Assembly (NCBI RefSeq): GCF_003325455.1
Contig: NZ_CP025198.1
Coordinates: 124,001-188,000 of the forward strand
Reading direction: 5' to 3'
Source: Acidipropionibacterium virtanenii
GTDB lineage: Bacteria; Actinomycetota; Actinomycetes; Propionibacteriales; Propionibacteriaceae
DNA: 64,000 nt
The notes beneath the pieces are model-generated. The model ran no database searches, was not told the origin of the DNA, and saw nothing but the letters and a program-made list of their open reading frames with translations. Both the position numbers and the translations under genes were made by a program. Positions 1,443 to 62,727 of the stretch are shown one piece after another (position 1 is the stretch's first letter; every line of letters begins with the position of its first letter).

Positions 1443-1582
1443 GGGTCATCCTTCCGCAGACGCGCCTGAGTGCCAGGCGGCCGTCGTCATCCAGAAGTCT
1501 GGAAAAACGCACTGTGCGAAATCTGTGATCCGAGTGTGGTGAGCGGATGAGCCGGGCCGTGGTCGCCGATGACACGACAGCG

Positions 1583-1638
1583 CGCCAGAGTCTGAACGCA
1601 GCGCCAGGAATACCTGGCGCGTCGTGCAGACTCTGGCG
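1583..1638. repeat. Intergenic palindrome, family A copy 1
   Basis: Outer arms CGCCAGAGTCTG and its exact complement (1583-1594 / 1627-1638) enclose a second palindrome at 1601-1620 with 8-bp arms GCGCCAGG / CCTGGCGC around AATA. There is no T-run on either side, so it is not a standard intrinsic terminator. The same design recurs at 12404-12471, and the inner core also recurs in the family D palindromes at 22.0 and 23.1 kb. Confidence 0.85.
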
Positions 1639-1718
1639 TTGCGTGGGAACAGGAGGGAGAGGTGGGGACAGGGGTGGAAGGGGGAGAGGGGCCACTGCGC
1701 CTCCACCGGGCGACGACG

Positions 1719-3086: not shown

Positions 3087-3176
3087 CGCCAGTCTATGGA
3101 GCCGTCTCAACGGTCAGGGCCGGTGCGCTCTCCGAAAATCCCGCTCGATGGGGCTCGCGGGTCAGATCCGGGCGGA

Positions 3177-3244
3177 GGATCCGCTCCCAACACGCCGTCG
3201 CGCAGCTCCGGCGAGCGCCACGACGGCGTGTTGGGAGCAGATCC
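3177..3244. repeat. Intergenic palindrome, family B copy 1, in a divergent spacer
   Basis: The arms at 3177-3200 and 3221-3244 match at 23 of 24 positions; the core is TCCCAACACGCCGTC. It sits between the divergently transcribed kinase and galE, where a terminator would serve no gene. The same core, with different outer bases that nevertheless pair with each other, recurs at 62.5 kb. The rest of the spacer (3087-3395) holds a possible galE promoter (TAGGAT near 3350) and nothing else recognisable. Confidence 0.85.
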
Positions 3245-3395
3245 CCCAGTGTCAAGGGCCCGACGTCGTCGGATCCAGCCAGGTCCCGGCGGAGCGAGGC
3301 GGCCCCGTCTGGTCCCGGGCGGCCCCGTCCGGCCCCGGGCGGGTCCGTAGGATAGCCACGGACACCTGACCAGCGACGAAAGGCATGGGTCACAG

Positions 3396-10858: not shown

Positions 10859-10910
10859 TCCTCCGGAGCCGGGTGTCGGGCCGCCCTTCTCGGGGCTGGC
10901 CTGCCGAGAG

Positions 10911-10952
10911 CGTGTAGGAAATGTGCGCGTCAGCTCGCACATTTCCTACACG
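10911..10952. repeat. Intergenic palindrome, family C copy 1
   Basis: Perfect 17-bp arms (CGTGTAGGAAATGTGCG and complement) around an 8-base loop starting CGTCA, in the convergent spacer after the cys operon. It may also terminate transcripts from both sides. Copies with matching arms and a conserved GTCA loop motif lie at 12563-12614 and 16514-16565. Confidence 0.85.
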
Positions 10953-10988
10953 GTTTCCGCGGTGATGCGGTCCAGGAGGGTCGGGGAC

Positions 10989-12024: not shown

Positions 12025-12435
12025 ATGACTGAGTACTGGAAGATCGTTCCGTCCTTGGAACATATCTACCTCGAGGACAGCTGGGTCCTGAAGGTGATGG
12101 CGACCCCCGGTTCCGTGGAATTCCTCACCGAGTTCGTGCTGACTGAGGAGCATCCGGACTATCACCCTCCCAAGTCCGGCGAGCACTACTGCTACGAGAC
12201 CAGGCTGCTGACTTTCTCAGGGTGGGAGGACTTCTCCTGGACGAGAGGATCCGACAGGCCAAACGCGGATCCTGACGGGACCGTTGACTACGGCAACTAC
12301 GACGTATTCGAGATCGAGGGGCGACAGTACTCGATCGTCGGTGGGTTCGGGAAAATCCGGATCGTCGCTGACCCGCCCCGGGTTCTACCTCCGACCCCTG
12401 TCAACGACGCGCCAGAGTCTGCACGACGCGCCTGA
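12025..12435 (+). CDS. Unknown small protein, immunity-like
   Basis: 136 residues from ATG 12025 with GGAGG seven bases upstream; TTG 12022 is an in-frame alternative. The sequence has many aromatics (WKIVPSLEHIYLEDSW, then VLTEEHPDY, then GEHYCYETRLLTFSGWEDFSW and YGNYDVFEI), a pattern seen in stand-alone proteins found among contact-toxin immunity genes; this assignment is inference. The last 11 codons and the TGA lie within the family A palindrome, so the C-terminal tail (PVNDAPESARRA) is repeat-derived and the original end was probably replaced. Confidence 0.6.
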   Translation: MTEYWKIVPSLEHIYLEDSWVLKVMATPGSVEFLTEFVLTEEHPDYHPPKSGEHYCYETRLLTFSGWEDFSWTRGSDRPNADPDGTVDYGNYDVFEIEGRQYSIVGGFGKIRIVADPPRVLPPTPVNDAPESARRA

Positions 12436-12471
12436 AATACCTGGCGCGCCGTGCAGTGTCCGGCGCGTCGT
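12404..12471. repeat. Intergenic palindrome, family A copy 2, overlapping a gene end
   Basis: 21-bp arms (12404-12424 and 12451-12471) match at 17 positions; the inner core GCGCCTGAAATACCTGGCGC is at 12429-12448. The TGA stop of the upstream gene is in this core. Outer arms match copy 1 at 1583, the inner core matches the palindrome at 23117-23182 apart from a few bases. Confidence 0.85.
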
Positions 12472-12545: not shown

Positions 12546-12562
12546 GACGGTGAGGGACCGTT

Positions 12563-12614
12563 GAGACCGTGTAGGAAATGTGGTCGTCATTTCACCCATT
12601 TCCTACACGCTCTC
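12563..12614. repeat. Intergenic palindrome, family C copy 2
   Basis: Arms 12563-12582 and 12595-12614 (core GTGTAGGAAATG and its complement, extended by GAGA and CTCTC) with a loop containing GTCGTCATTT. It lies in the convergent spacer before the Lrp regulator's stop. Confidence 0.8.
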
Positions 12615-12626
12615 CGAGCGGGGGCG

Positions 12627-19643: not shown

Positions 19644-19670
19644 TTCCCGGCGCCCGAGGGTGCGTATAGT
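19644..19670 (+). promoter_or_regulatory. thi operon promoter
   Basis: TATAGT at 19665-19670, with a weak -35 around TGTTCC/TTCCCG (19642-19649), stands just before the riboswitch; the transcript would start within its first bases. Confidence 0.5.
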
Positions 19671-19675
19671 TCGAG

Positions 19676-19758
19676 ACCTACGGGAGCCCCACAGCGGGGC
19701 TGAGAGGGCGCAAGCCGACCGTCACACCTGATGCGGGTCATGCCGCCGGAGGAAAGGA
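19676..19758 (+). ncRNA. TPP riboswitch (THI element)
   Basis: The hallmark GGGGCTGAGAGGG follows a P2-type stem (AGCCCC / GGGGCT), and ACCTGATGCGGGTCATGCCG supplies the pyrophosphate-binding helix; the order and spacing fit the class. It sits directly before thiS, and the final helix runs into GGAGGAAAGGAG, the ribosome site. Ligand binding therefore probably blocks translation initiation rather than causing termination. Confidence 0.92.
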
Positions 19759-19771
19759 GCGATGCGCGATC

Positions 19772-22002: not shown

Positions 22003-22068
22003 CGTGGCGCCACTTCTGCGGCGCGGCGCCTGGAACAGCTGGCGCCACGTCGGACTTCAGGCGCCACG
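22003..22068. repeat. Intergenic palindrome, family D copy 1, at the 3' end of a nuclease gene
   Basis: Outer arms CGTGGCGCC / GGCGCCACG (22003-22011, 22060-22068) surround an inner pair GGCGCC-N10-GGCGCC whose sequence (GCGCCTGGAACAGCTGGCGC) is a variant of the family A core. The nuclease gene ends inside the right arm: its TGA is 22059-22057. Confidence 0.8.
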
Positions 22069-22992
22069 TCGCTGAGGGCTTCGGCTGTCCAGAAGGCGGA
22101 TGAGTCTGGCCGCGGCGGCGACCGGATTGCGGAGGTCCGCGCGGCAGAACCGGATGATCTCCCATCCCTGGTCACGGATGTTCGCCTCGCGCTCCTTCTC
22201 GTGGACGACGACGTCAGAGACCGTCTGTCCGGGTTTGAGCAGCCGGCCGTACTTCTGCGGGCCGTCGTACTCGCCGACGACCCTCTGGTTCGGCCAGCCG
22301 AAGTCACAGCGGGCGACGAATTCCCCCAGCGGTGTGCATATGCCCACCTGAAGATCCGGCGCGGGGCACTGGTGGAGTTCCAGCTGGGCACGCATCAGGG
22401 ACTCCCCGGGGCTCTCCGACCTTCCGTCGGCGAATGCCGCAACTGCCTGAGCCATCACATTGCCTCTCCTCCTCGGCGCCCGCCTCAGGAGCTCCTGCAT
22501 CCGCTCTACGGAGCCGGAGCCCCTCAGAACGGCGTCAGCGATCATGACGCCTGTCGGGAAGTCGAATTCGCGAGCCATGTCGACGGCAGTCCGTTCGGGA
22601 CTGGTCACCAGGTAGGAGCCGATGCGCATGATCTCGTCGGGTTCGAGTGCGCAGGCTCGTGTGATGATCTGTGGACGCCGGTGCTTACTGCTTCCCCTCG
22701 GCCGGTTCAGCCACACCTGCTCGGCACCCCTGTTCGTCATCGGCAGGCCGAGCAGCGCGACGGCAGACGTATGCGTCAGCACGCCCGGTGCCTTTGAGAG
22801 TGCCGGCAGGGTGGCCTGGATGAGCTCGATCTGACGGCTTCTGAGGTCCTTGGCCAAGGGTCCTTCGACGACCGCTCCGTGTCGGACGGCCGAGTAGCTT
22901 CCCTCCCTCTTGAGCTTCTGGATCTGGTCGGGGCTCATGCCCTGACGGACGAGGTCGCTGATTCTGAACACGAGCCGGCCTGATTGCTGCAT
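22057..22992 (-). CDS. AbiEi-like / DUF559 endonuclease-domain protein
   Basis: 311 residues from ATG 22992; an in-frame start to 23055 is possible. The N-terminus (RISDLVRQGMSPDQIQKLKR, then YSAVRHGAVVEG) is like the winged-helix AbiEi antitoxin domain; the C-terminal ~100 residues are DUF559, a Vsr-like PD-(D/E)xK fold: acidic FVARCDFGWPNQRVVGEYDG, then REANIRDQGWEIIRF. Solitary proteins of this design are widespread in actinobacteria without known function. Here it is bracketed by two family D palindromes, and its last codons and stop are palindrome sequence. No toxin partner is adjacent. Confidence 0.75.
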   Translation of the reverse strand: MQQSGRLVFRISDLVRQGMSPDQIQKLKREGSYSAVRHGAVVEGPLAKDLRSRQIELIQATLPALSKAPGVLTHTSAVALLGLPMTNRGAEQVWLNRPRGSSKHRRPQIITRACALEPDEIMRIGSYLVTSPERTAVDMAREFDFPTGVMIADAVLRGSGSVERMQELLRRAPRRRGNVMAQAVAAFADGRSESPGESLMRAQLELHQCPAPDLQVGICTPLGEFVARCDFGWPNQRVVGEYDGPQKYGRLLKPGQTVSDVVVHEKEREANIRDQGWEIIRFCRADLRNPVAAAARLIRLLDSRSPQRRGA

Positions 22993-23116
22993 GGCACACA
23001 AGACAGCCACACCCCGCGCCGGCTGACCAGACTTTCCCGGGAAATCTGTGGACAACTCGATTCGCGGAACCGCCCTGTGGAAAACCCCTCAGGCTGTCCG
23101 GTCCGTTCAAGGTCGG

Positions 23117-23182
23117 CGTGGCGCCACTTCTCCGACGCGACGCCTGAAATAGCCGGCGCCAGGTCGGAGAAGTGGCGCCACC
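23117..23182. repeat. Intergenic palindrome, family D copy 2, at the 5' side of the nuclease gene
   Basis: 20-bp arms (23117-23136 and 23163-23182) match at 19 positions and include GTGGCGCCACTTCTCC. The inner core GACGCCTGAAATAGCCGGCGCC is shared with family A. It lies between divergent genes, so it cannot be a simple terminator. The remainder of the 22993-23384 spacer shows nothing else. Confidence 0.85.
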
Positions 23183-23384
23183 TGGTGGAGAACCGGGGAG
23201 CACGGTCCTGGCTCCCATCTGGTGGGGACGACCCGCGAAAGGCAGGTGGTGGCCACCGGCACTGTGCGCCTCCACCGCGGCATGCGCCCCGCGCGGGGCG
23301 TCGGACACGACTGGTGGCCCCGGGAAGGGCAGGATGGGGCGGACCCCACCCCGAGGTGGACCGCCGAGGAGGGATGATGCCACG

Positions 23385-24921: not shown

Positions 24922-27777
24922 ATGTCCTCCTTCCTTCATGATCTGAGCGCATGGTGCTTCCGCCGCGGCAAGACGGTGATCGGCCTCTGGCTGGCCGTCC
25001 TGGTGGCGCTGGGGGCGTTGACGCTGGGGTTCAAGGGGTCCTTCGACGACTCATTCACCATCCCCGGTGCGCCCTCCCAGACCGCCATGGATCACATGAA
25101 GGCCACCTTCCCGGAGGCCGCCGACCTCATGGCGAACGTCGTCGTCACCGTCCCCGACGGGGCATCGGTCGAATCGGCGGTCAACAGGCCGAAGATCGAG
25201 CAGGGCGTCAAGAACCTCGAGAAGCTCGACTTCGTGAAGTCCGCCACGTCGCCGTGGGGGGACTACGTCGACGGCATGGTCAGCTCCGACAAGTCCGCCG
25301 CCGTCATCCAGGTCGACGTCGGCGACATGACCTCGCTGTCCTTCCCCAGCTCCGACAAGCAGGCCCTCCAGGACGCCGGCAAGAAGATCCAGGAGTCCAT
25401 GCCGGCCGGCACCACGGTGGACGTCGGAGGCCAGGCCTTCGGCGCGACGCTGCCCACCCTCGGCATCACCGAGGCCTTCGGCGTCATCGTCGCCCTGGTG
25501 GTGCTGTTCATCACCCTCGGCTCCCTCATCGCCGCCGGAATGCCGATCCTCACCGCCCTCATCGGCGTCGGCATCTCGGCATGCCTCATCCTGCTGCTCG
25601 CCAACTTCACCGACGTCAACTCCACCACCCCGATGCTGGCCGTCATGCTGGGCCTGGCCGTCGGCATCGACTACGCCCTGTTCATCCTGTCGCGGCACCG
25701 CGACCAGCTGGCCGAGGGCGTCGACCCGCAGACCTCGGCCACCAGATCCGTGGCCACTTCCGGGTCCGCGGTGATCTTCGCCGGCGCGACCGTCATCATC
25801 GCCCTGGTGGGGCTGTCGATCGCGGGCATCCCCTTCCTCACCGTGATGGGCATCTTCGCCGCCATCGGCGTGGCCCTGGCCGTGATCATCGCGCTCACCA
25901 TGCTGCCGGCCTTCATGGGTCTGATGGGGGCCCGGATGGCCCCGCGGCGACGCCGTGCCGGGAAGAGGCGGAAGAAGCCCGCCCGCGAGAGCCGCGGCGG
26001 CGTCTTCGGCTGGTGGGTGCGAGTGGTCACCAAGGTGCCGCTGCTCACCGTCCTCATCGTGGTGGTGGGGGTCGGGTCGCTGGCCATTCCGATGAAGGAC
26101 CTCCACCTCTCCCTGCCCAGCGCCGCCGAGGACGCGGCGGGCACCCCCTCGCGCGATACCTACGACACCCTCACCAAGAAATTCGGCGAGGGCTTCAACG
26201 GGCCGATCATCGTCACGGCCGACATCGTCAACTCCGACGATCCGATGGGCGTCATCAAGGGGCTGAAGAAGGACATCGAGGCCCTTCCCGGCGTCAAGCA
26301 GGTGCCCACCGCCCTGCCCAACCAGAACGCCGACACCGCGATGATCCAGGTGATCCCGACCACCGGACCCTCCGACGAGGCCACCTCGGAGCTGGTGAAC
26401 CGGCTGCGCGACCAGCAGTCGAAGTGGTCCGACGAGTACGACGTCGACACCGGCGTGACGGGACAGACCGCCATCCAGATCGACGTCTCCGACCAGCTCG
26501 GCAGCGCCCTGGTGCCCTTCGGGATCTTCGTCGTCGGCCTGTGCCTGGTGCTGCTGACCGTGGTGTTCCGCTCCATCGCGGTGCCCGTCAAGGCCGTCGT
26601 CGGCTACCTGCTGAGCGCCGGTTCGGCGCTGGGCGTCTCCCAGCTGGTGTTCAACCGAGGCATCGGGCTGAGCATCATCAACATGGACTCCGCCGTGCCG
26701 ATCATCTCCTTCATGCCGATCTGCGTGATGGGCATCCTCTTCGGCCTGGCGATGGACTACGAGGTCTTCCTCGTCTCGCGGATGCGCGAGTCCTACACCC
26801 ACGGGATGGACGCGAAGGGGGCCGTCGTCGACGGTTTCATCCATTCCGGCAAGGTGGTGACGGCGGCCGCCGTCATCATGTTCTCGGTCTTCGCCTTTTT
26901 CATCCCCGAGGGGATGAATGCGCTGCGCGAGATCGCCCTGGCGCTGGCCGTCGGCATCCTCGTGGACGCCTTCCTGGTGCGGATGACCTTCGTGCCCGCC
27001 GTGCTCACCCTGCTCGGGGACAAGGCCTGGTGGGTGCCGAAATGGCTGGATGCGCACATGCCGGTCCTCGACATCGAGGGCGAGGCCGTCGCCCGCGAGG
27101 CGAAGCTCTCCGAGTGGCCCACGGCGTCTCACACCGAGGCGGTGCATGGCGAGAAGCTGTCCGTCCACGGACTGTTCAGCGACGTCGACGCCCACGTGGA
27201 GCCGGGTGAGGTACAGGCCGTGGTCGGGCCCGCCGGGCCCGTCACCGGGCTGCTGCTGGCCCTGTCGGGGCGTCTCACCCTGGACTCCGGCACCTGCCGG
27301 TCCGCCGGTGAGCTGCTGCCCGACCGGGCCGCCAAGGTGCGCCGGCTGGTCTCCTTCGTCGACGCCGCCGAGGCCGACGGGCTGGCCGACCGGCTTCGTC
27401 AGGCGCTGCGTCCGGAGAGCCGGATGGTGGTCGTCGACCACGCCGACCGGATCGTCGAACCCGACGACCGGGCGGCCCTGACCCGCCTGTGCGAGAACGC
27501 CCGCAATCGCGCCACCACCGGTGTGCTGCTGGGCGCCCAGCGGGCCCGGCGCCTGGACTGGGCCCGCCCAGACGGATTCGGCGAACTCGTCGCCTCCGAG
27601 GCGCCGTACCAGGGAGTCCCCGCGATGGGGGAGGCCGCCCCGCAGACCGAGCCCGCGGCGTCGACCCCTGCTCCTTCGCAACCCGCTGCTCTGCACTCCG
27701 CGGCTGCGACGGCCTCGGACGAGGCGGTCGGCCCCCACCCCAGAACTGTTGACCCCTCCACCGAAGGAACGCGCTGA
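24922..27777 (+). CDS. MMPL/RND-type exporter with a degenerate ABC-ATPase-like C-terminal domain
   Basis: 951 residues. Two MMPL halves, each a single helix, a large external loop, then a helix bundle (first at about 175-345, second at about 525-715); VGIDYALFILSRHRDQ and FGLAMDYEVFLVSRMRE are the paired signatures with proton-relay Asp. After the last helix about 170 residues resemble an ABC ATPase that has lost its active site: VEPGEVQAVVGPAGPVTGLL (P-loop remnant at 769-776 without the Lys/Ser) and RMVVVDHAD at about 834 as Walker B. It likely exports lipids or drugs using the proton gradient. Stop overlaps the start of the YhgE gene by one base. Confidence 0.9.
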   Translation: MSSFLHDLSAWCFRRGKTVIGLWLAVLVALGALTLGFKGSFDDSFTIPGAPSQTAMDHMKATFPEAADLMANVVVTVPDGASVESAVNRPKIEQGVKNLEKLDFVKSATSPWGDYVDGMVSSDKSAAVIQVDVGDMTSLSFPSSDKQALQDAGKKIQESMPAGTTVDVGGQAFGATLPTLGITEAFGVIVALVVLFITLGSLIAAGMPILTALIGVGISACLILLLANFTDVNSTTPMLAVMLGLAVGIDYALFILSRHRDQLAEGVDPQTSATRSVATSGSAVIFAGATVIIALVGLSIAGIPFLTVMGIFAAIGVALAVIIALTMLPAFMGLMGARMAPRRRRAGKRRKKPARESRGGVFGWWVRVVTKVPLLTVLIVVVGVGSLAIPMKDLHLSLPSAAEDAAGTPSRDTYDTLTKKFGEGFNGPIIVTADIVNSDDPMGVIKGLKKDIEALPGVKQVPTALPNQNADTAMIQVIPTTGPSDEATSELVNRLRDQQSKWSDEYDVDTGVTGQTAIQIDVSDQLGSALVPFGIFVVGLCLVLLTVVFRSIAVPVKAVVGYLLSAGSALGVSQLVFNRGIGLSIINMDSAVPIISFMPICVMGILFGLAMDYEVFLVSRMRESYTHGMDAKGAVVDGFIHSGKVVTAAAVIMFSVFAFFIPEGMNALREIALALAVGILVDAFLVRMTFVPAVLTLLGDKAWWVPKWLDAHMPVLDIEGEAVAREAKLSEWPTASHTEAVHGEKLSVHGLFSDVDAHVEPGEVQAVVGPAGPVTGLLLALSGRLTLDSGTCRSAGELLPDRAAKVRRLVSFVDAAEADGLADRLRQALRPESRMVVVDHADRIVEPDDRAALTRLCENARNRATTGVLLGAQRARRLDWARPDGFGELVASEAPYQGVPAMGEAAPQTEPAASTPAPSQPAALHSAAATASDEAVGPHPRTVDPSTEGTR

Positions 27778-30203
27778 TGTCCCGCTTCACAATGCCGCGC
27801 GCCGAGCGGTCGCACTCGACCATCACCCTGAGCATCCCCTCGGTGATCGCTCTCATCCTGGTGCCGCTGCTGGTGGCCGCCGGGCTGATCGGAACCACCT
27901 GGAAGATGACCGACCGGCTCGGGCAGGTGAAGGCCGCCATCGTCAACGAGGACGCCGGGGTCAAGCTCAACGGGCAGCAGGTGCCGCTGGGCCGCCAGCT
28001 GTCGGGCGGGCTCATCAAGTCCGACACGCAGACCACCGACGGGCGCACCATCTCCTGGGAGCTGTCGGATTCCGACAAGGCCTCCGACGGATTGAAGAGC
28101 GGCGAGTACGCGGCCGTGGTCACCATCCCGAAGGACTTCTCCAAGGACGCGACGTCGTACTCGGCGAACAAGGCCGACAAGGCGAATTCGGCGGTGATCA
28201 ATGTGAGGACGTCGGATTCCGCCCCGGTGACCGACACCACGATCGCCACGATGACCGCTCAGGCCGCGGAGCGGGAGACCAACAAGACCCTCAACAGCCA
28301 GTATCTCGACAACATCTACATCGGCTTCAACAAGTCGGCGAACTCGATGGTGTCGCTGGCGAAGGGGGCCAAACAGCTCGACAACGGTGCGGCGAGCCTC
28401 AACAGCGGGATCAAGCAGTCCACCAACGGCGCCAAGCAGCTGAACACCGGCATGGGCCAGCTCGACAAGGGAGGTTCTCAGCTGGCCACCAGCGGGAACC
28501 AGATGGTCGTCGGGGTGAAGCAGCTCGCCACCGGGATCAACGCGCTGGACGTCAATGGCCAGAAGCTGAGCAAGAGCGGCAAGCAGCTGAGCAGCGGGGT
28601 CTCCCAGCTGTCGACCGGGATGACGCAACTCGGCACCAGCGGCGACAAGCTGGCCTCCAGCGGTAAGCAGTTGAACAGCGGCGTGTCGCAGCTGTCGACC
28701 GGGCTGAACAAGCTGGACAAGCAGCTTCAGAGCTCATCCTCCGGTTCCGGATCGGACATGGACCTCAGCGGACTTCAGAAGCTGAAGACGGGCGCAGACG
28801 GCGTGGCCCAGGGAACCCAGGGCGTGTATGCCGGTCTGCAGACGTACCAGAAGAACATGGCAGCTCTTCCGGATACTCAGGTGCAGCAGATCGTCCAGCA
28901 GACCTGCAAGCAGGCGCCCGCGGAATGCGCCACGCCGGAGCAGCAGAGGGCCGTCGGCGTCGGCGTGAAGGCTGGTGCCGCCGCAGCGGCCCAGGGACTC
29001 GAACAGAAGGACCCGGATTCGGGTGTGTCGTTGATGGATGCGGCGAAGCAGACGAATACGGGTGCCCAGGCGTATGCGAAAGCCGTGGGCCAGGCCGTCG
29101 ATGCGCTCACCAAGCAGCTGAAGCAGCTTCCCGAACAGATGAAGCAGCTCCAGAGCGGGGTTCATCAGGTGGCCGGGGCGTCATCGCAGCTGTCGAGCGG
29201 GGTGTCCAAGTACACCAACGGAGTCTCCCAGTACACCAACGGCGTGTCCCAGGTGGCCAGACAGGTGCCGCAGCTGAGCAGCGGCGTCTCCCAGTACACC
29301 AACGGGGTGTCGCAGTACACCGCCGGCGTCCACACCCTCAACACTCAGATGCCCACCCTGACCTCCGGGATCTCCCAGTACGTCTCCGGGGTCGGGACCT
29401 TCGCCGACGGCGTCCACCAGAGCGCCACCGGCGTCGACAAGTTCTACGACGGGCAGGTGAAGCTGTCCCAGGGCGCCTCGAAGTACGCGAAGGGCGTCAA
29501 CACCTTCTCCACCGAGCTCCAGAAGGGCTCCAAGCAGGTGCCGACCTACTCGGCGGCCGACCGGGAGAAGCTCTCCGACGTCGTCTCCACCCCGGTGAAT
29601 GCGGACACCAACCCGATGGGCACCTCCGCCTGGGTGGTCGGGCTCATCGTCATCCTCGGCCTGTGGCTCGGCGCCCTGGCCATGTGGCTGGTGGCCCGCA
29701 CCGTGCCGTCGCGGGTGCTGACCTCCTCGAAGTCCTCACTCTCCCTGCTGTGGACCTCGATGTCGACCGGCGCCCTGGTCACCGGTATCAGCGCCCTGGG
29801 ACTCACCGTGATCGCCGCTCTCGCCACCGACCTGTCGGTGGGCCGCGGCATCGGCCTGTTCGGCATGCTGCTGCTGGTCGGAGCCATGTGCATGCTGGTC
29901 AACCACGCCCTGGCGGCCTGGCTGCACGCCGGGGGACGGTTCATCTCGCTGCTCTTCTTCATCGTGGCAGCGGCCGTCGGACTGGTGAGCGCCGTACCGA
30001 AGCCGATCAGTACGGTGCACAGCATCTCGCCGTTGAAACCCGCCATGGAGGGGGTCACCGCGATCCTGTCCGGCAGCTCGCCCACCTTCGGATCTTTCGT
30101 CACCATCCTCCTGTGGCTGGTGATCGGCGGGGTGGCGAGCCTGCTGGCGGTCAACAGGGCCAGACGCACCAGTGCTGCGAAGGTGGTGGGCCAGGTCGCC
30201 TGA
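27777..30203 (+). CDS. YhgE/Pip-family membrane protein
   Basis: 808 residues. One N-terminal membrane helix (about 24-46), a long extracellular region of roughly 570 residues built of repeats of the form GxxQLxxG / SGVSQYTNGVSQ, likely helical or coiled coil, and a C-terminal bundle of about five to six helices from about 618. This is the YhgE/Pip (phage infection protein, EsaA-like) family. Gene overlap with the MMPL exporter implies they form one export machine. The repeat region is made of near-identical short repeats at DNA level (28.4-28.7 and 29.2-29.3 kb) and may vary by recombination. Confidence 0.9.
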   Translation: MSRFTMPRAERSHSTITLSIPSVIALILVPLLVAAGLIGTTWKMTDRLGQVKAAIVNEDAGVKLNGQQVPLGRQLSGGLIKSDTQTTDGRTISWELSDSDKASDGLKSGEYAAVVTIPKDFSKDATSYSANKADKANSAVINVRTSDSAPVTDTTIATMTAQAAERETNKTLNSQYLDNIYIGFNKSANSMVSLAKGAKQLDNGAASLNSGIKQSTNGAKQLNTGMGQLDKGGSQLATSGNQMVVGVKQLATGINALDVNGQKLSKSGKQLSSGVSQLSTGMTQLGTSGDKLASSGKQLNSGVSQLSTGLNKLDKQLQSSSSGSGSDMDLSGLQKLKTGADGVAQGTQGVYAGLQTYQKNMAALPDTQVQQIVQQTCKQAPAECATPEQQRAVGVGVKAGAAAAAQGLEQKDPDSGVSLMDAAKQTNTGAQAYAKAVGQAVDALTKQLKQLPEQMKQLQSGVHQVAGASSQLSSGVSKYTNGVSQYTNGVSQVARQVPQLSSGVSQYTNGVSQYTAGVHTLNTQMPTLTSGISQYVSGVGTFADGVHQSATGVDKFYDGQVKLSQGASKYAKGVNTFSTELQKGSKQVPTYSAADREKLSDVVSTPVNADTNPMGTSAWVVGLIVILGLWLGALAMWLVARTVPSRVLTSSKSSLSLLWTSMSTGALVTGISALGLTVIAALATDLSVGRGIGLFGMLLLVGAMCMLVNHALAAWLHAGGRFISLLFFIVAAAVGLVSAVPKPISTVHSISPLKPAMEGVTAILSGSSPTFGSFVTILLWLVIGGVASLLAVNRARRTSAAKVVGQVA

Positions 30204-30270
30204 TACCAGGGTGTGCTTGTCCAGTGGGAGTTCTCGCTGAGATGGGCTGAGCCGGGCTGGGCAGTGGCTC

Positions 30271-30340
30271 CTGGAAACGGCCACAGGACGGCCGCCGTGT
30301 GGATATTCCATGCGGCGGCCGTCCTGTGGCCGTTCTCAGG
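30271..30340. repeat. Intergenic palindrome G
   Basis: 21-bp perfect arms (30276-30296 and 30314-30334; core GGCCACAGGACGGCC) extend outward to about 27 bp with two mismatches. The inner spacer has TGGATATTCCA. It lies between convergent genes (YhgE and SDR) and could form a two-way terminator, but lacks T-runs. Confidence 0.85.
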
Positions 30341-30358
30341 GGCGTATGGCCGAACTCG

Positions 30359-35333: not shown

Positions 35334-35336
35334 CGT

Positions 35337-35401
35337 GACGATTTTTTTCGTTCCGGACCCCCTGAATCGACGGTGGCGATGCCGAATCAGAGGTTCCGGA
35401 A
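35337..35401. repeat. Palindrome, family E copy 1, at the 3' end of a nuclease gene
   Basis: TTCCGGACCCCCTGAATCGAC and its partner (35352-35372 / 35381-35401) pair with a few mismatches; the left arm is extended by ATTTTTTTCG without a complement on the right. The T-run precedes rather than follows the stem, so it is not a terminator for either neighbour. The nuclease stop TGA (35389-35387) lies in the right arm. Confidence 0.8.
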
Positions 35402-36343
35402 GGAGTTTGTGCACCTCCAGAAGGGTGCATACGCCTGATACACCACCAACGGCAGGGCGCTGGGGCGGTGCGGACGGTACAGGCGGCAGCACAGGTCGTG
35501 CGGGAAGTCGTTCGGGTTCCGGCGCAGCTGCTTGGGAGTGACAGGCAGGAGAGTCCACCCCGCCGCCGCGAACCAGCGGGTTCGGCGGGCGTCCTCAGCG
35601 AATGCTCGGGCATTGTTGTGGTACTGCTCGCTGGCCACTTCGACTCCCAGCTTCTCGGCCTCGAAGGCGGCATCGGGATGTCGCTTCCTGATTGTCTGGA
35701 CGCCGTCCTCGAGCACCGGCAGGAACACCGGGAGATTACCTTTCCATCCCTTGATGCCAGCGATCCGGAGCAGCTCGTGGAGCTCGAGTTCCGCTACCGA
35801 CCACGGACTCTCGGAGATGTATCGCAGCGTCTTGTCCATGAGCCGCGCGTCGGGGTGGTGCCGCAGAAGCTCTCGGGCCCGTGTCATCGCCTCGGGGGTC
35901 ACCTTGTCCTCGCGTATTGCATCACAGATCGGCGCCCAGTCCCCCCGGCTGCCGAGGAACAACGCCGATGCCGCTGTGCTCGCCATCGAGCCGTGCTCGG
36001 TGTCGAGCTTCAACTCGCCGGGCAGCCGGCAGTTGTGGAACCGGAGCCGGCCACGGTCCCGGAGCTCGTACGGGAGGAGCGCGTCGACGACCGGAGCCGC
36101 AAGATCGGGTAGCCCTTGGAGGCGCAGCGCCGCTCTGCCGGTGACGACCGAGGACGGTCTCCAGAGCCAGTTCGCCAGGACCCAGGCGCTGGGGTCCGCC
36201 TGGACGCCCGGTGACATGACGATGCGGGGCAATGGACGCAGGACGAGCCCGTCCACCGCGGCTCGTGCCGCCTGGCGGGCCAGGGGCCCGGAGGGAGGGA
36301 TCCGGAGGACGGGGGCGCGTTCCAGCAGCTCAAGTAGTTCCAT
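35387..36343 (-). CDS. Second DUF559-type endonuclease-domain protein
   Basis: 318 residues. The N-terminal 200 residues differ from the 22-kb protein but have the same plan (VVTGRAALRLQGLP, a promoter-binding-like helical domain). The C-terminus has DUF559/Vsr-like features: FEAEKLGVEVASEQYHNN with the acidic pair, FAEDARRTRWFAAAGWTLLPV and a final basic helix region. Start ATG 36343 with GAGG immediately before it. Bracketed by family E palindromes; the final residues (NSFRNL) and the stop are encoded in the palindrome. No partner gene is adjacent. Confidence 0.68.
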   Translation of the reverse strand: MELLELLERAPVLRIPPSGPLARQAARAAVDGLVLRPLPRIVMSPGVQADPSAWVLANWLWRPSSVVTGRAALRLQGLPDLAAPVVDALLPYELRDRGRLRFHNCRLPGELKLDTEHGSMASTAASALFLGSRGDWAPICDAIREDKVTPEAMTRARELLRHHPDARLMDKTLRYISESPWSVAELELHELLRIAGIKGWKGNLPVFLPVLEDGVQTIRKRHPDAAFEAEKLGVEVASEQYHNNARAFAEDARRTRWFAAAGWTLLPVTPKQLRRNPNDFPHDLCCRLYRPHRPSALPLVVYQAYAPFWRCTNSFRNL

Positions 36344-36431
36344 ACCTCAGTTATCGCTGTCGGCCCCTTGATTTGTCGGCTGAGTTCGACCCTGTGGAAA
36401 ACGTCGACGGACGCTTGTGGATAACTTCGGT

Positions 36432-36506
36432 GACACTTTTTCGTTCCAGAACCGCTGAAACCGGCGCACCGGCGCCTCTTCAAGGGATCTGGGACGAAAA
36501 AATGTC
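36432..36506. repeat. Palindrome, family E copy 2, 5' side of the second nuclease gene
   Basis: 28-bp arms (36432-36459 and 36479-36506) pair at 23 positions; core TTTTTCGTTCCAGAACC / TTTTTTCGTCCCAGATCC on the complement. A third copy with perfect 23-bp arms is at 60103-60183. Confidence 0.85.
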
Positions 36507-36622
36507 GGGGCGGGGTGGTGGTGACGCGGCGGAGGAGGTCGCGGGGCGGGGCGGAAGATGTTGAAGGGTGGTGGCGGAGCCGGGGCGGAAGACGTTGCGG
36601 GGCGGGGTGGTGGTGACGGGGC
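36507..36622. repeat. G-rich imperfect repeat block
   Basis: The plus strand has runs GGGGCGGGGTGGTGGTGACG at both ends and a repeated CGGGGCGGAAGA(T/C)GTTG between. Several G-runs are close enough for G-quadruplex formation. It abuts the stop of the SorC regulator (36623). Confidence 0.6.
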
Positions 36623-41991: not shown

Positions 41992-42255
41992 CGAACGGGT
42001 GGGGTCGGCGGGCCCTGGCCTGTGTTTCCCTGTACCGCCTCGTGGCGGGGGTCTGCGTGCGGATTCGACATGGGTCGCGGTCCCCGTGCCCACACAAAGC
42101 TGTGTATTGACTTTTCGCCAGTAACTCCACGTTCATCCCCGTGCAGGAGGGCCAACGCAGGAGGAAGAGGCGCATAGCATCCACACAGGACACCGGTGGC
42201 GGGGAATGTGACGGAAAGGCTCCGGAAGGCGGGGCCTTCGTCCGGGTCCTGGCCG

Positions 42256-60102: not shown

Positions 60103-60183
60103 GGCGACATTTTCTCGTCCTGGAGGCCCGGTTCCGGCACCGTCGGTGCGGATCCCGAGTCTCCAGGACGAGAAAATGTCGCC
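60103..60183. repeat. Palindrome, family E copy 3, perfect 23-bp arms
   Basis: Arms 60103-60125 and 60161-60183 are exact complements; core GACATTTTCTCGTCC matches the family E arms near 36.4 kb (GACATTTTTTCGTCC). No nuclease gene lies beside it. Between convergent pyrB and pepC. Confidence 0.9.
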
Positions 60184-62464: not shown

Positions 62465-62541
62465 GGGGGCCGCCGCCTTTCCCCTGGCCGGGCCCGCTGT
62501 CGTTCCCAGGGCCTTTCCCCTGCCGTCCCTGACTGGGGGAA

Positions 62542-62603
62542 TTTCCTCCCAACACGCCGTCCCAGCGCTCGCTGGGGCTCGGGGACGGCGTGTTGGGAGG
62601 AAA
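62542..62603. repeat. Intergenic palindrome, family B copy 2
   Basis: 22-bp arms (62542-62563 and 62582-62603), core TCCCAACACGCCGTC as in copy 1 at 3.2 kb; outer bases (TTTCC) differ from copy 1 but pair within this copy. Confidence 0.85.
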
Positions 62604-62727
62604 ATCTCCACAGTAAACTCACAGGCGCCAGTTTCGTTGTGGCCGGCGACGGGGTACTGGGTTAGTGCTGGCTTGCCGCTACGAGGGGGGCCGGGGGGGT
62701 CGTTCCCCCGCCTATTAAGGTGAGGGC

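Follow-up and report, generated by a model that had tools for sequence, protein, structure and literature searches.

A gene for an AbiEi-like, Vsr-like fusion protein between matched palindromes in Acidipropionibacterium virtanenii: a candidate palindrome-spreading unit of actinobacteria

In the window, by which we mean the whole 64-kb stretch of Acidipropionibacterium virtanenii DNA analysed here, unit 1 consists of a single gene lying between two palindromes and adjoined by a ThiF/rhodanese gene and a deoxynucleoside kinase gene (Table 1). The ATG at 22992 is its likely start, the reading frame staying open to a TTG at 23055, and the stop codon (22057-22059) falls within the left repeat, as the first-pass annotation of this DNA had stated. 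The same annotation had described the gene as bracketed by paired palindromes with common sequence, and the pairing proved to be real: the repeats at 22003-22076 and 23117-23190 share 78% identity over 74 nt in direct orientation, and the flank-to-flank shared score of 34.5 compares with maxima of 15.0 (200 pairs) and 18.0 (500 pairs) in mismatched-locus controls (L071, with too little downstream sequence, was omitted from the scoring with 200 control pairs). In the right copy, the arms 23118-23144 and 23155-23181 pair at 89% of 27 positions across a 10-nt gap; the left copy is eroded, with 35-nt arms that are 71% paired. The element GTGGCGCCACTTCT has three exact occurrences in the window, every one at unit 1; allowing up to two mismatches brought no extra window matches, and three such looser matches were reached in 6 of 100 shuffles. 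Neither an AbiEii (DUF1814) toxin gene nor a methyltransferase gene was found among the two neighbours of unit 1. Elsewhere, the window contains a TPP riboswitch (19670-19771; Rfam RF00059, 58.4 bits) and internal repeats of about 145 nt (28480-29417) within the ORF 27777-30203.

Table 1. Units, palindromes and DnaA-box-like sites in the 64-kb window.
Feature	Position	Strand	Basis
Solo own2-type palindrome (68 nt) in a gap between gene predictions	1577..1644	.	
Solo CTCCC-type palindrome	3174..3247	.	
Solo TGTAGG-type palindrome	10904..10960	.	
Solo own2-type palindrome, overlaps a predicted ORF end by 32 nt	12404..12471	.	
Solo TGTAGG-type palindrome	12558..12618	.	
Unit 1 left flanking palindrome, worn copy, holds the gene's stop codon	22003..22076	.	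repeat search
Unit 1 gene, predicted AbiEi-like DNA-binding and Vsr/homing-endonuclease-like parts, about 311 aa	22057..22992	-	ORF, profiles, predicted fold
DnaA-box-like site TGTGGACAA (read on + strand), unit 1	23047..23055	-	
DnaA-box-like site TGTGGAAAA (read on + strand), unit 1	23076..23084	-	
Unit 1 right flanking palindrome, good copy	23117..23181	.	inverted repeat, arms 27 nt, gap 10
Unit 2 left flank, imperfect palindrome	35336..35405	.	
Unit 2 gene, distant member of the unit 1 gene family, product sharing 14% identity with that of unit 1	35387..36343	-	
Two DnaA-box-like sites of unit 2	36393..36401, 36416..36424	-	
Unit 2 right flank, palindrome	36434..36508	.	
Probable solo own3-type copy, 72-77% identity to the own3 and L045 flanking repeats	42113..42188	.	
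Solo CTCCC-type palindrome	62536..62609	.	

The unit 1 protein matched no Pfam family, DUF559 included, and its nuclease part drew nothing from Pfam, NCBIfam or a PDB sequence search. PADLOC AbiEi profiles span residues 6-185; the commonest of these was matched by 39 of 40 aligned relatives, and Pfam AbiEi_4 by 21 of the 40. An AlphaFold2 model based on 52 sequences had a mean pLDDT of 93.5, and when it was compared with PDB folds (157 matches), AbiEi of Streptococcus agalactiae (6y8q) gave the sole match with E < 0.001 (E 1.3e-5; TM-score 0.46 by target length). The catalytic domain of I-Bth0305I (3r3p) ranked fourth (probability 0.99; E 0.13; TM 0.68 by target) and Vsr (1vsr) fifth (probability 0.97; E 0.14). 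Because all of the nuclease fold matches had E > 0.1, the nuclease assignment rests on fold probability together with four acidic residues of the putative Vsr-like (EDxHD) domain, E201, D234, E245 and D247, that are invariant across the 52 sequences; the unit 2 protein does not keep D247. Judged by its predicted fold, the unit 1 protein appears to join an AbiEi-like DNA-binding part to a domain of the Vsr/homing-endonuclease kind, and the gene probably encodes a DNA-cutting enzyme. The first-pass label of AbiEi/DUF559 is supported in its AbiEi half, through PADLOC and fold, and has no Pfam match in the unit 1 protein for its DUF559 half; the Vsr-like domain proposed at the same time is supported by the predicted fold, with matches at E 0.13-0.14. 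Two relatives carry annotation as AbiEi-family antitoxin or DUF559 protein and nothing more; the DUF559 name was met in a relative encoded by a Tsukamurella plasmid. No HUH enzyme was named among the best 50 of the 157 fold matches, and the H-hydrophobic-H motif is absent from the unit 1 protein; a position-free match to this motif, unaligned to any HUH site, is present in 19 of 95 family proteins.

Relatives of the gene are present in all five genus genomes, namely the genome to which the window belongs (G000, 3.43 Mb) and four others (G001-G004). Inspection by eye found palindromes, some of them imperfect, on both sides in 12 of 14 genus loci, with one side only at L040 and L048, and each locus or orthologous pair has its own palindrome sequence. 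Matching was then scored as sequence sharing between the two flanks, which is not a gauge of symmetry, with a threshold of 18 and 500 mismatched pairs, related pairs excluded, as controls. Scores above 18 were obtained in 80 of 98 family loci and 45 of the 65 loci of a named set, and in none of the 500 mismatched pairs used for either; the named set comprises 65 of 80 loci, 15 cut-off, partial or broken ones having been left out, and shares several loci with the family set. Flanks far from the gene at the same loci exceeded 18 in 1 of 88 and 0 of 65 controls. Matched flanks also characterized 33 of 50 loci outside Propionibacteriaceae, a group defined by the titles of the sequence records that includes Pseudonocardia, Rhodococcus, Nocardia, Gordonia, Blastococcus and Nakamurella, so that the question posed by the first-pass annotation, whether homologous genes have flanking copies, can be answered in the affirmative for most of them. 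The flanks did not pass 18 in 18 of the 98 family loci and 20 of the 65 named loci. In more distant subfamilies within the genus, 14 of 23 distinct loci passed (L288, L368 and L369 among the 23 being partial genes); L291, L361, L362, L364, L366, L368 and L369 did not pass, and L288 was cut off.

The matched flanks behave as palindromes do, in that both orientations passed in 64 of the 80 matched family loci and 37 of the 45 matched named loci. An inverted repeat score of at least 13 was found in one or more flanks of 69 of 80 and 41 of 45 loci, a level that far segments reached in 4 of 186 and 3 of 130 cases; both flanks had one in 43 of 80 family and 30 of 45 named loci. Collectively, these data demonstrate that the arrangement of a gene between matched repeats occurs in many relatives far beyond chance; chance repeats were rejected by the mismatched-pair, far-flank and inverted-repeat controls. 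Cargo of plasmids or phages was likewise rejected, the searches having returned a single weak phage record, seven plasmid records that were weak too, and no near plasmid match. In the upstream flanks of L110, L143 and L040, tandem arrays of half-sites or single arms stand beside one palindrome or replace it.

Dispersal, for which the first-pass annotation had proposed a search of related genomes, does not apply to the palindrome of unit 1, which is present only beside its gene: in G000 the next matches beyond its own locus begin only at E 0.04, and G001-G004 have no match. Other palindrome types are dispersed. Genome-wide own-query searches covered the unit 1, own2-type and L109-type palindromes; the counts given for the CTCCC and TGTAGG types are lower bounds, and own3-type copies were sought within the 64-kb window. 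The own2-type palindrome occupies 15 places in G000, 5 in G001 and none in G002-G004, and the own2 gene lies in G000 with a broken counterpart (L048) at the same site in G001, a site common to none of the examined G002-G004 loci. In G097 the L109-type palindrome occupies 20 full places and 1 partial place, two of which adjoin its gene; the 19 congeners, searched with this palindrome, have none. CTCCC-type copies number at least 17 in G000, at least 27 in G001, and at least one each in G002 and G004. Starting from a palindrome also led to genes: the CTCCC type to a family gene flanked by the same type (G000:C1:2832483-2833370), and the TGTAGG type to another (G001:C1:224191-225069) with a decayed counterpart in G000. 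Co-occurrence of palindrome and nuclease, a check that the first-pass annotation had proposed, is seen for the own2 and L109 types in the genomes that have copies. The CTCCC type in G001 is an exception: no unit flanked by such palindromes was found there despite at least 27 copies.

The solo copies compared were not accompanied by nuclease genes. Protein comparison of 27 solo regions, some of them overlapping, found no adjoining family gene, the sole exception being an L109 reading frame that matched inside the palindrome itself in 4 regions. Six of the seven solo palindromes of the window are clear of predicted genes. At L178:1191-1622 (G000:C1:3304500-3307500), a short stretch that by eye may encode an AbrB-like protein lies between a pair of TGTAGG-type palindromes spaced 0.4 kb apart. 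Two further long imperfect palindromes of the window, at 30267-30343 and 60103-60183, have convergent predicted genes on either side and could be assigned to none of the units; they may be terminators, or palindromes that are orphans. These two are what speaks for regarding all the palindromes as ordinary terminators or chance repeats, an explanation to which we attach almost no probability given the flank and inverted-repeat controls and the recurrence of the same palindrome types at unlinked places; plain terminators, too, were rejected.

In the palindromes of the unit 1 subfamily, the same half-site was seen by eye twice per arm, about 19-20 nt apart. Conservation across 20 L109-type copies reaches 0.98-0.99 in the outer half-sites and 0.85 in the inner ones, as against 0.68-0.76 in the spacers and 0.58-0.62 in the flanks; covariation among these 20 full copies, the partial place being left out, is slight (5 of 38 column pairs). 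The own2-type copies end sharply at 68 nt, and their arms are paired at 0.869 (maximum 0.849 in 1000 shuffles) with 35 compensated cells (maximum 30 in 1000 shuffles), a comparison made on 17 of 20 places with shuffles that ignore relatedness. In the CTCCC type, inner arms of 16 nt are kept, the outer arms vary and a second half-site is not clear. Lengths run from about 64 nt (unit 1) through 68 (own2) and 74 (CTCCC) to at least 76 nt (L109), with symmetric ends; the TGTAGG type, at about 52 nt, contains GTAG within each arm rather than as a tag at one end.

Half-sites of this kind resemble a protein footprint, and the protein could accordingly be an AbiEi-like repressor, its nuclease part serving defence or repair, with the palindromes as operators: the upstream copy for autoregulation and the solo copies for a small regulon. 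The predicted AbiEi-like fold is consistent with such a role, as is the binding of AbiEi antitoxins to inverted repeats in their own promoters, according to excerpts of a published account (PMC7319586). We nevertheless consider a repressor unlikely. A matching copy lies downstream of the gene too, not upstream alone, and the sharp ends and partly conserved spacers of the own2 type over 68 nt look like copied DNA. Furthermore, five of the seven solo copies of the window lie between convergent ORFs (one is divergent and one tandem, with ORFs chosen by composition), and most are therefore badly placed for a promoter operator.

Palindrome similarity was further compared with protein identity over 2,554 pairs from 75 loci (score > 18, long ORF), in which all effects were small. 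It tracked residues 61-125 (beta 0.124; 0 of 300 permutations as large) and residues 5-60 (beta 0.078, p 0.013), more weakly residues 126-195 (beta 0.063, p 0.07), and did not track the nuclease part (beta -0.056, p 0.93). This bears on the scenario in which the palindromes are REP- or MITE-like and owe their spread to another enzyme, with the nuclease genes lodged between them as passengers. Such a scenario draws on the abundance of the CTCCC type in G001 (at least 27) without a flanked unit found there and on the undispersed palindrome of unit 1. It gives no cause for the weak tracking of the AbiEi-like part by palindrome similarity, however, and the pairing of each gene with its own flanks holds over many unrelated palindrome types; we regard it as very improbable.

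The flanks of unit 2 are each palindromic with a weak mutual match (score 15.5; threshold 18), and its site is bordered by what are presumably a protease-type gene and a SorC-type gene. At this site neither gene nor palindrome was seen in G002 and G004, where 44-49 nt separate the matched ends, or in G003, where the distance is about 144 nt, and in G001 it is occupied by a different unit, L037, of the unit 1 subfamily. Empty sites, which the first-pass annotation had suggested looking for, thus exist for unit 2; at unit 1, the comparison across genomes was made from the moeB end and is not clean because the other neighbour differs. Rearrangement and decay were evident as well. The own3 and L045 genes occupy the same site in inverted orientation with both flanks matching; between L036 and L042, one flank matches inverted and the other is unmatched. 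Comparison of two close species showed a downstream palindrome whose middle part has been lost. Of the palindrome at window 1582, a single decayed arm survives at the counterpart in G001, which therefore represents loss and not a virgin site. The family genes own3, L042, L043 and L048 are broken at differing positions, which points to frequent decay. Among the 14 genus loci, no two different sites were seen to carry near-identical units, which gives no sign of recent movement of whole units.

One site holding different units in two species would also be expected of a selfish gene of the homing-endonuclease type, for which the solo palindrome is the target, cut and then repaired from the unit to give the order palindrome, gene, palindrome. 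The likeness of the predicted C-terminal domain to the I-Bth0305I catalytic domain fits this, as do the direct repeats that extend past the palindrome in own2 and the CTCCC unit, as expected from insertion into an existing copy. Homing of this kind seems quite unlikely, since the closed versions of the unit 2 site lack a palindrome, the unit would go on cutting its own flanks, the inverted match is the better one in many loci, and the origin of 13 (own2-type, G000) to 18 (L109-type, G097) solo copies is left unexplained.

Many of the genes have a further feature upstream. The sequence TTNTCCACA, which we take to be the actinobacterial DnaA box, occurs 65 times on either strand within 24,750 nt (250 nt upstream of matched starts), at 56 of 99 loci, compared with 4 times in 272,865 nt of background and not at all in 24,429 nt downstream. 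The window has four occurrences only, all upstream of units 1 and 2.

As the best reading of these data, and one that we consider moderately probable, we propose that the nuclease spreads its own palindromes. Each unit would combine a single nuclease gene with a palindrome of its own, present in one copy on either side. In the unit 1 subfamily this palindrome carries half-sites of about 10 nt, two in each arm and four in total; the palindromes of the more distant subfamilies are simpler. Binding of the half-sites most likely falls to the AbiEi-like part, acting as an oligomer, and cutting or nicking within or next to the palindrome most likely to the Vsr-like part. Repair or replication of the hairpin-prone DNA after cutting could then copy the palindrome into new intergenic places as solo copies, and in a rarer outcome the gene might be carried along with two palindromes. 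The paired palindromes would permit recombination that flips or deletes the gene, and expression would be coupled to replication by the DnaA-box-like sites, of which many of the genes have one or two upstream. Binding, cutting, spreading by the nuclease, the route of copying and a role for the DnaA-like sites are what we infer. The data themselves show a predicted fold, private flanks that match, a half-site footprint in two dispersed types and solo copies of several types. They also show the site with different units in two species that is closed or short in three others, and the unit inverted in place. The mobilising role suggested in the first-pass annotation gains ground for the gene family rather than for unit 1, through flanks and dispersed copies, with movement and nuclease-driven copying still putative. 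If true, the proposal would account for a large group of actinobacterial genes, give the dispersed palindromes there a source, and mean that a second type of enzyme can spread palindromes. Most genes have their own candidate site in their flanks, which thereby offer dozens of protein-site pairs for the study of AbiEi-type DNA recognition.

Several known systems resemble the units in part. Those of the AbiE type IV toxin-antitoxin system share the N-terminal two thirds, by profile and fold, and the binding of inverted repeats by AbiEi; Rv2827c binds two sets of them (both from excerpts of PMC7319586). Here, by contrast, there is a nuclease-like fusion, palindromes lie on both sides of the gene, and a toxin gene is absent beside unit 1. 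Vsr-like homing endonucleases such as I-Bth0305I and the Vsr mismatch endonuclease are similar in the predicted fold of the C-terminal domain and differ from the free-standing gene described here, which lies between its own palindromes, has an AbiEi-like part and, in unit 1, has no methyltransferases as neighbours. MITEs and insertion sequences likewise have short gene-less copies alongside a gene-carrying unit; the present units have whole palindromes in place of simple terminal repeats and no known transposase, and no target-site duplication was seen by eye around the own2-type or L109-type copies. A literature search limited to titles and abstracts, mostly without subscription papers and including PMC3733652, PMC8266576 and PMC7319586, turned up no evident account of an AbiEi-Vsr gene in this arrangement with palindromes.

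The closest precedent for an enzyme with matched palindromes is the REP/RAYT system (REPtrons and TIRtrons), in which, according to excerpts of its description (PMC8266576), palindromes flank the gene of a DNA-processing enzyme and are scattered elsewhere too, mostly in intergenic places, and palindrome families can be assigned to their own enzyme. The flanking of the enzyme gene by its palindromes is found here as well, with 18 of 98 family loci below threshold. Intergenic dispersal with a matching enzyme was seen for the own2 and L109 types and in the positions of the window solo copies, and not for unit 1, and the CTCCC type is dispersed in G001 without a unit found. The enzyme is a predicted AbiEi-like and Vsr-like fusion here and a HUH tyrosine transposase (IS200/IS605-type) there. 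The palindromes here are symmetric and about 52 to at least 76 nt long, with four half-sites in those of the unit 1 subfamily, whereas REP sequences have 20-50 nt and a GTAG or CGTC tag at one end. Copy numbers are 5 to 27 here and hundreds there, and DnaA-box-like sites upstream of many nuclease genes set the present units apart. The REP/RAYT likeness noted in the first-pass annotation therefore stands for the arrangement of a gene between palindromes and not for the defining HUH enzyme and the tag at one end; lacking both, the nuclease units were not filed as a REPtron. Matched private flanks combined with scattered copies make the family look like an unrecognised palindrome-spreading element whose enzyme and palindrome architecture fall outside REP/RAYT. 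More broadly, and with slightly less than even confidence, we suggest that actinobacteria harbour a widespread, unnamed class of elements built on a fusion nuclease of AbiEi-Vsr type that recognises its own palindrome and spreads it, recognition shifting fast enough to leave mostly private palindromes, as a convergent, non-HUH and perhaps DnaA-timed counterpart of REP/RAYT.
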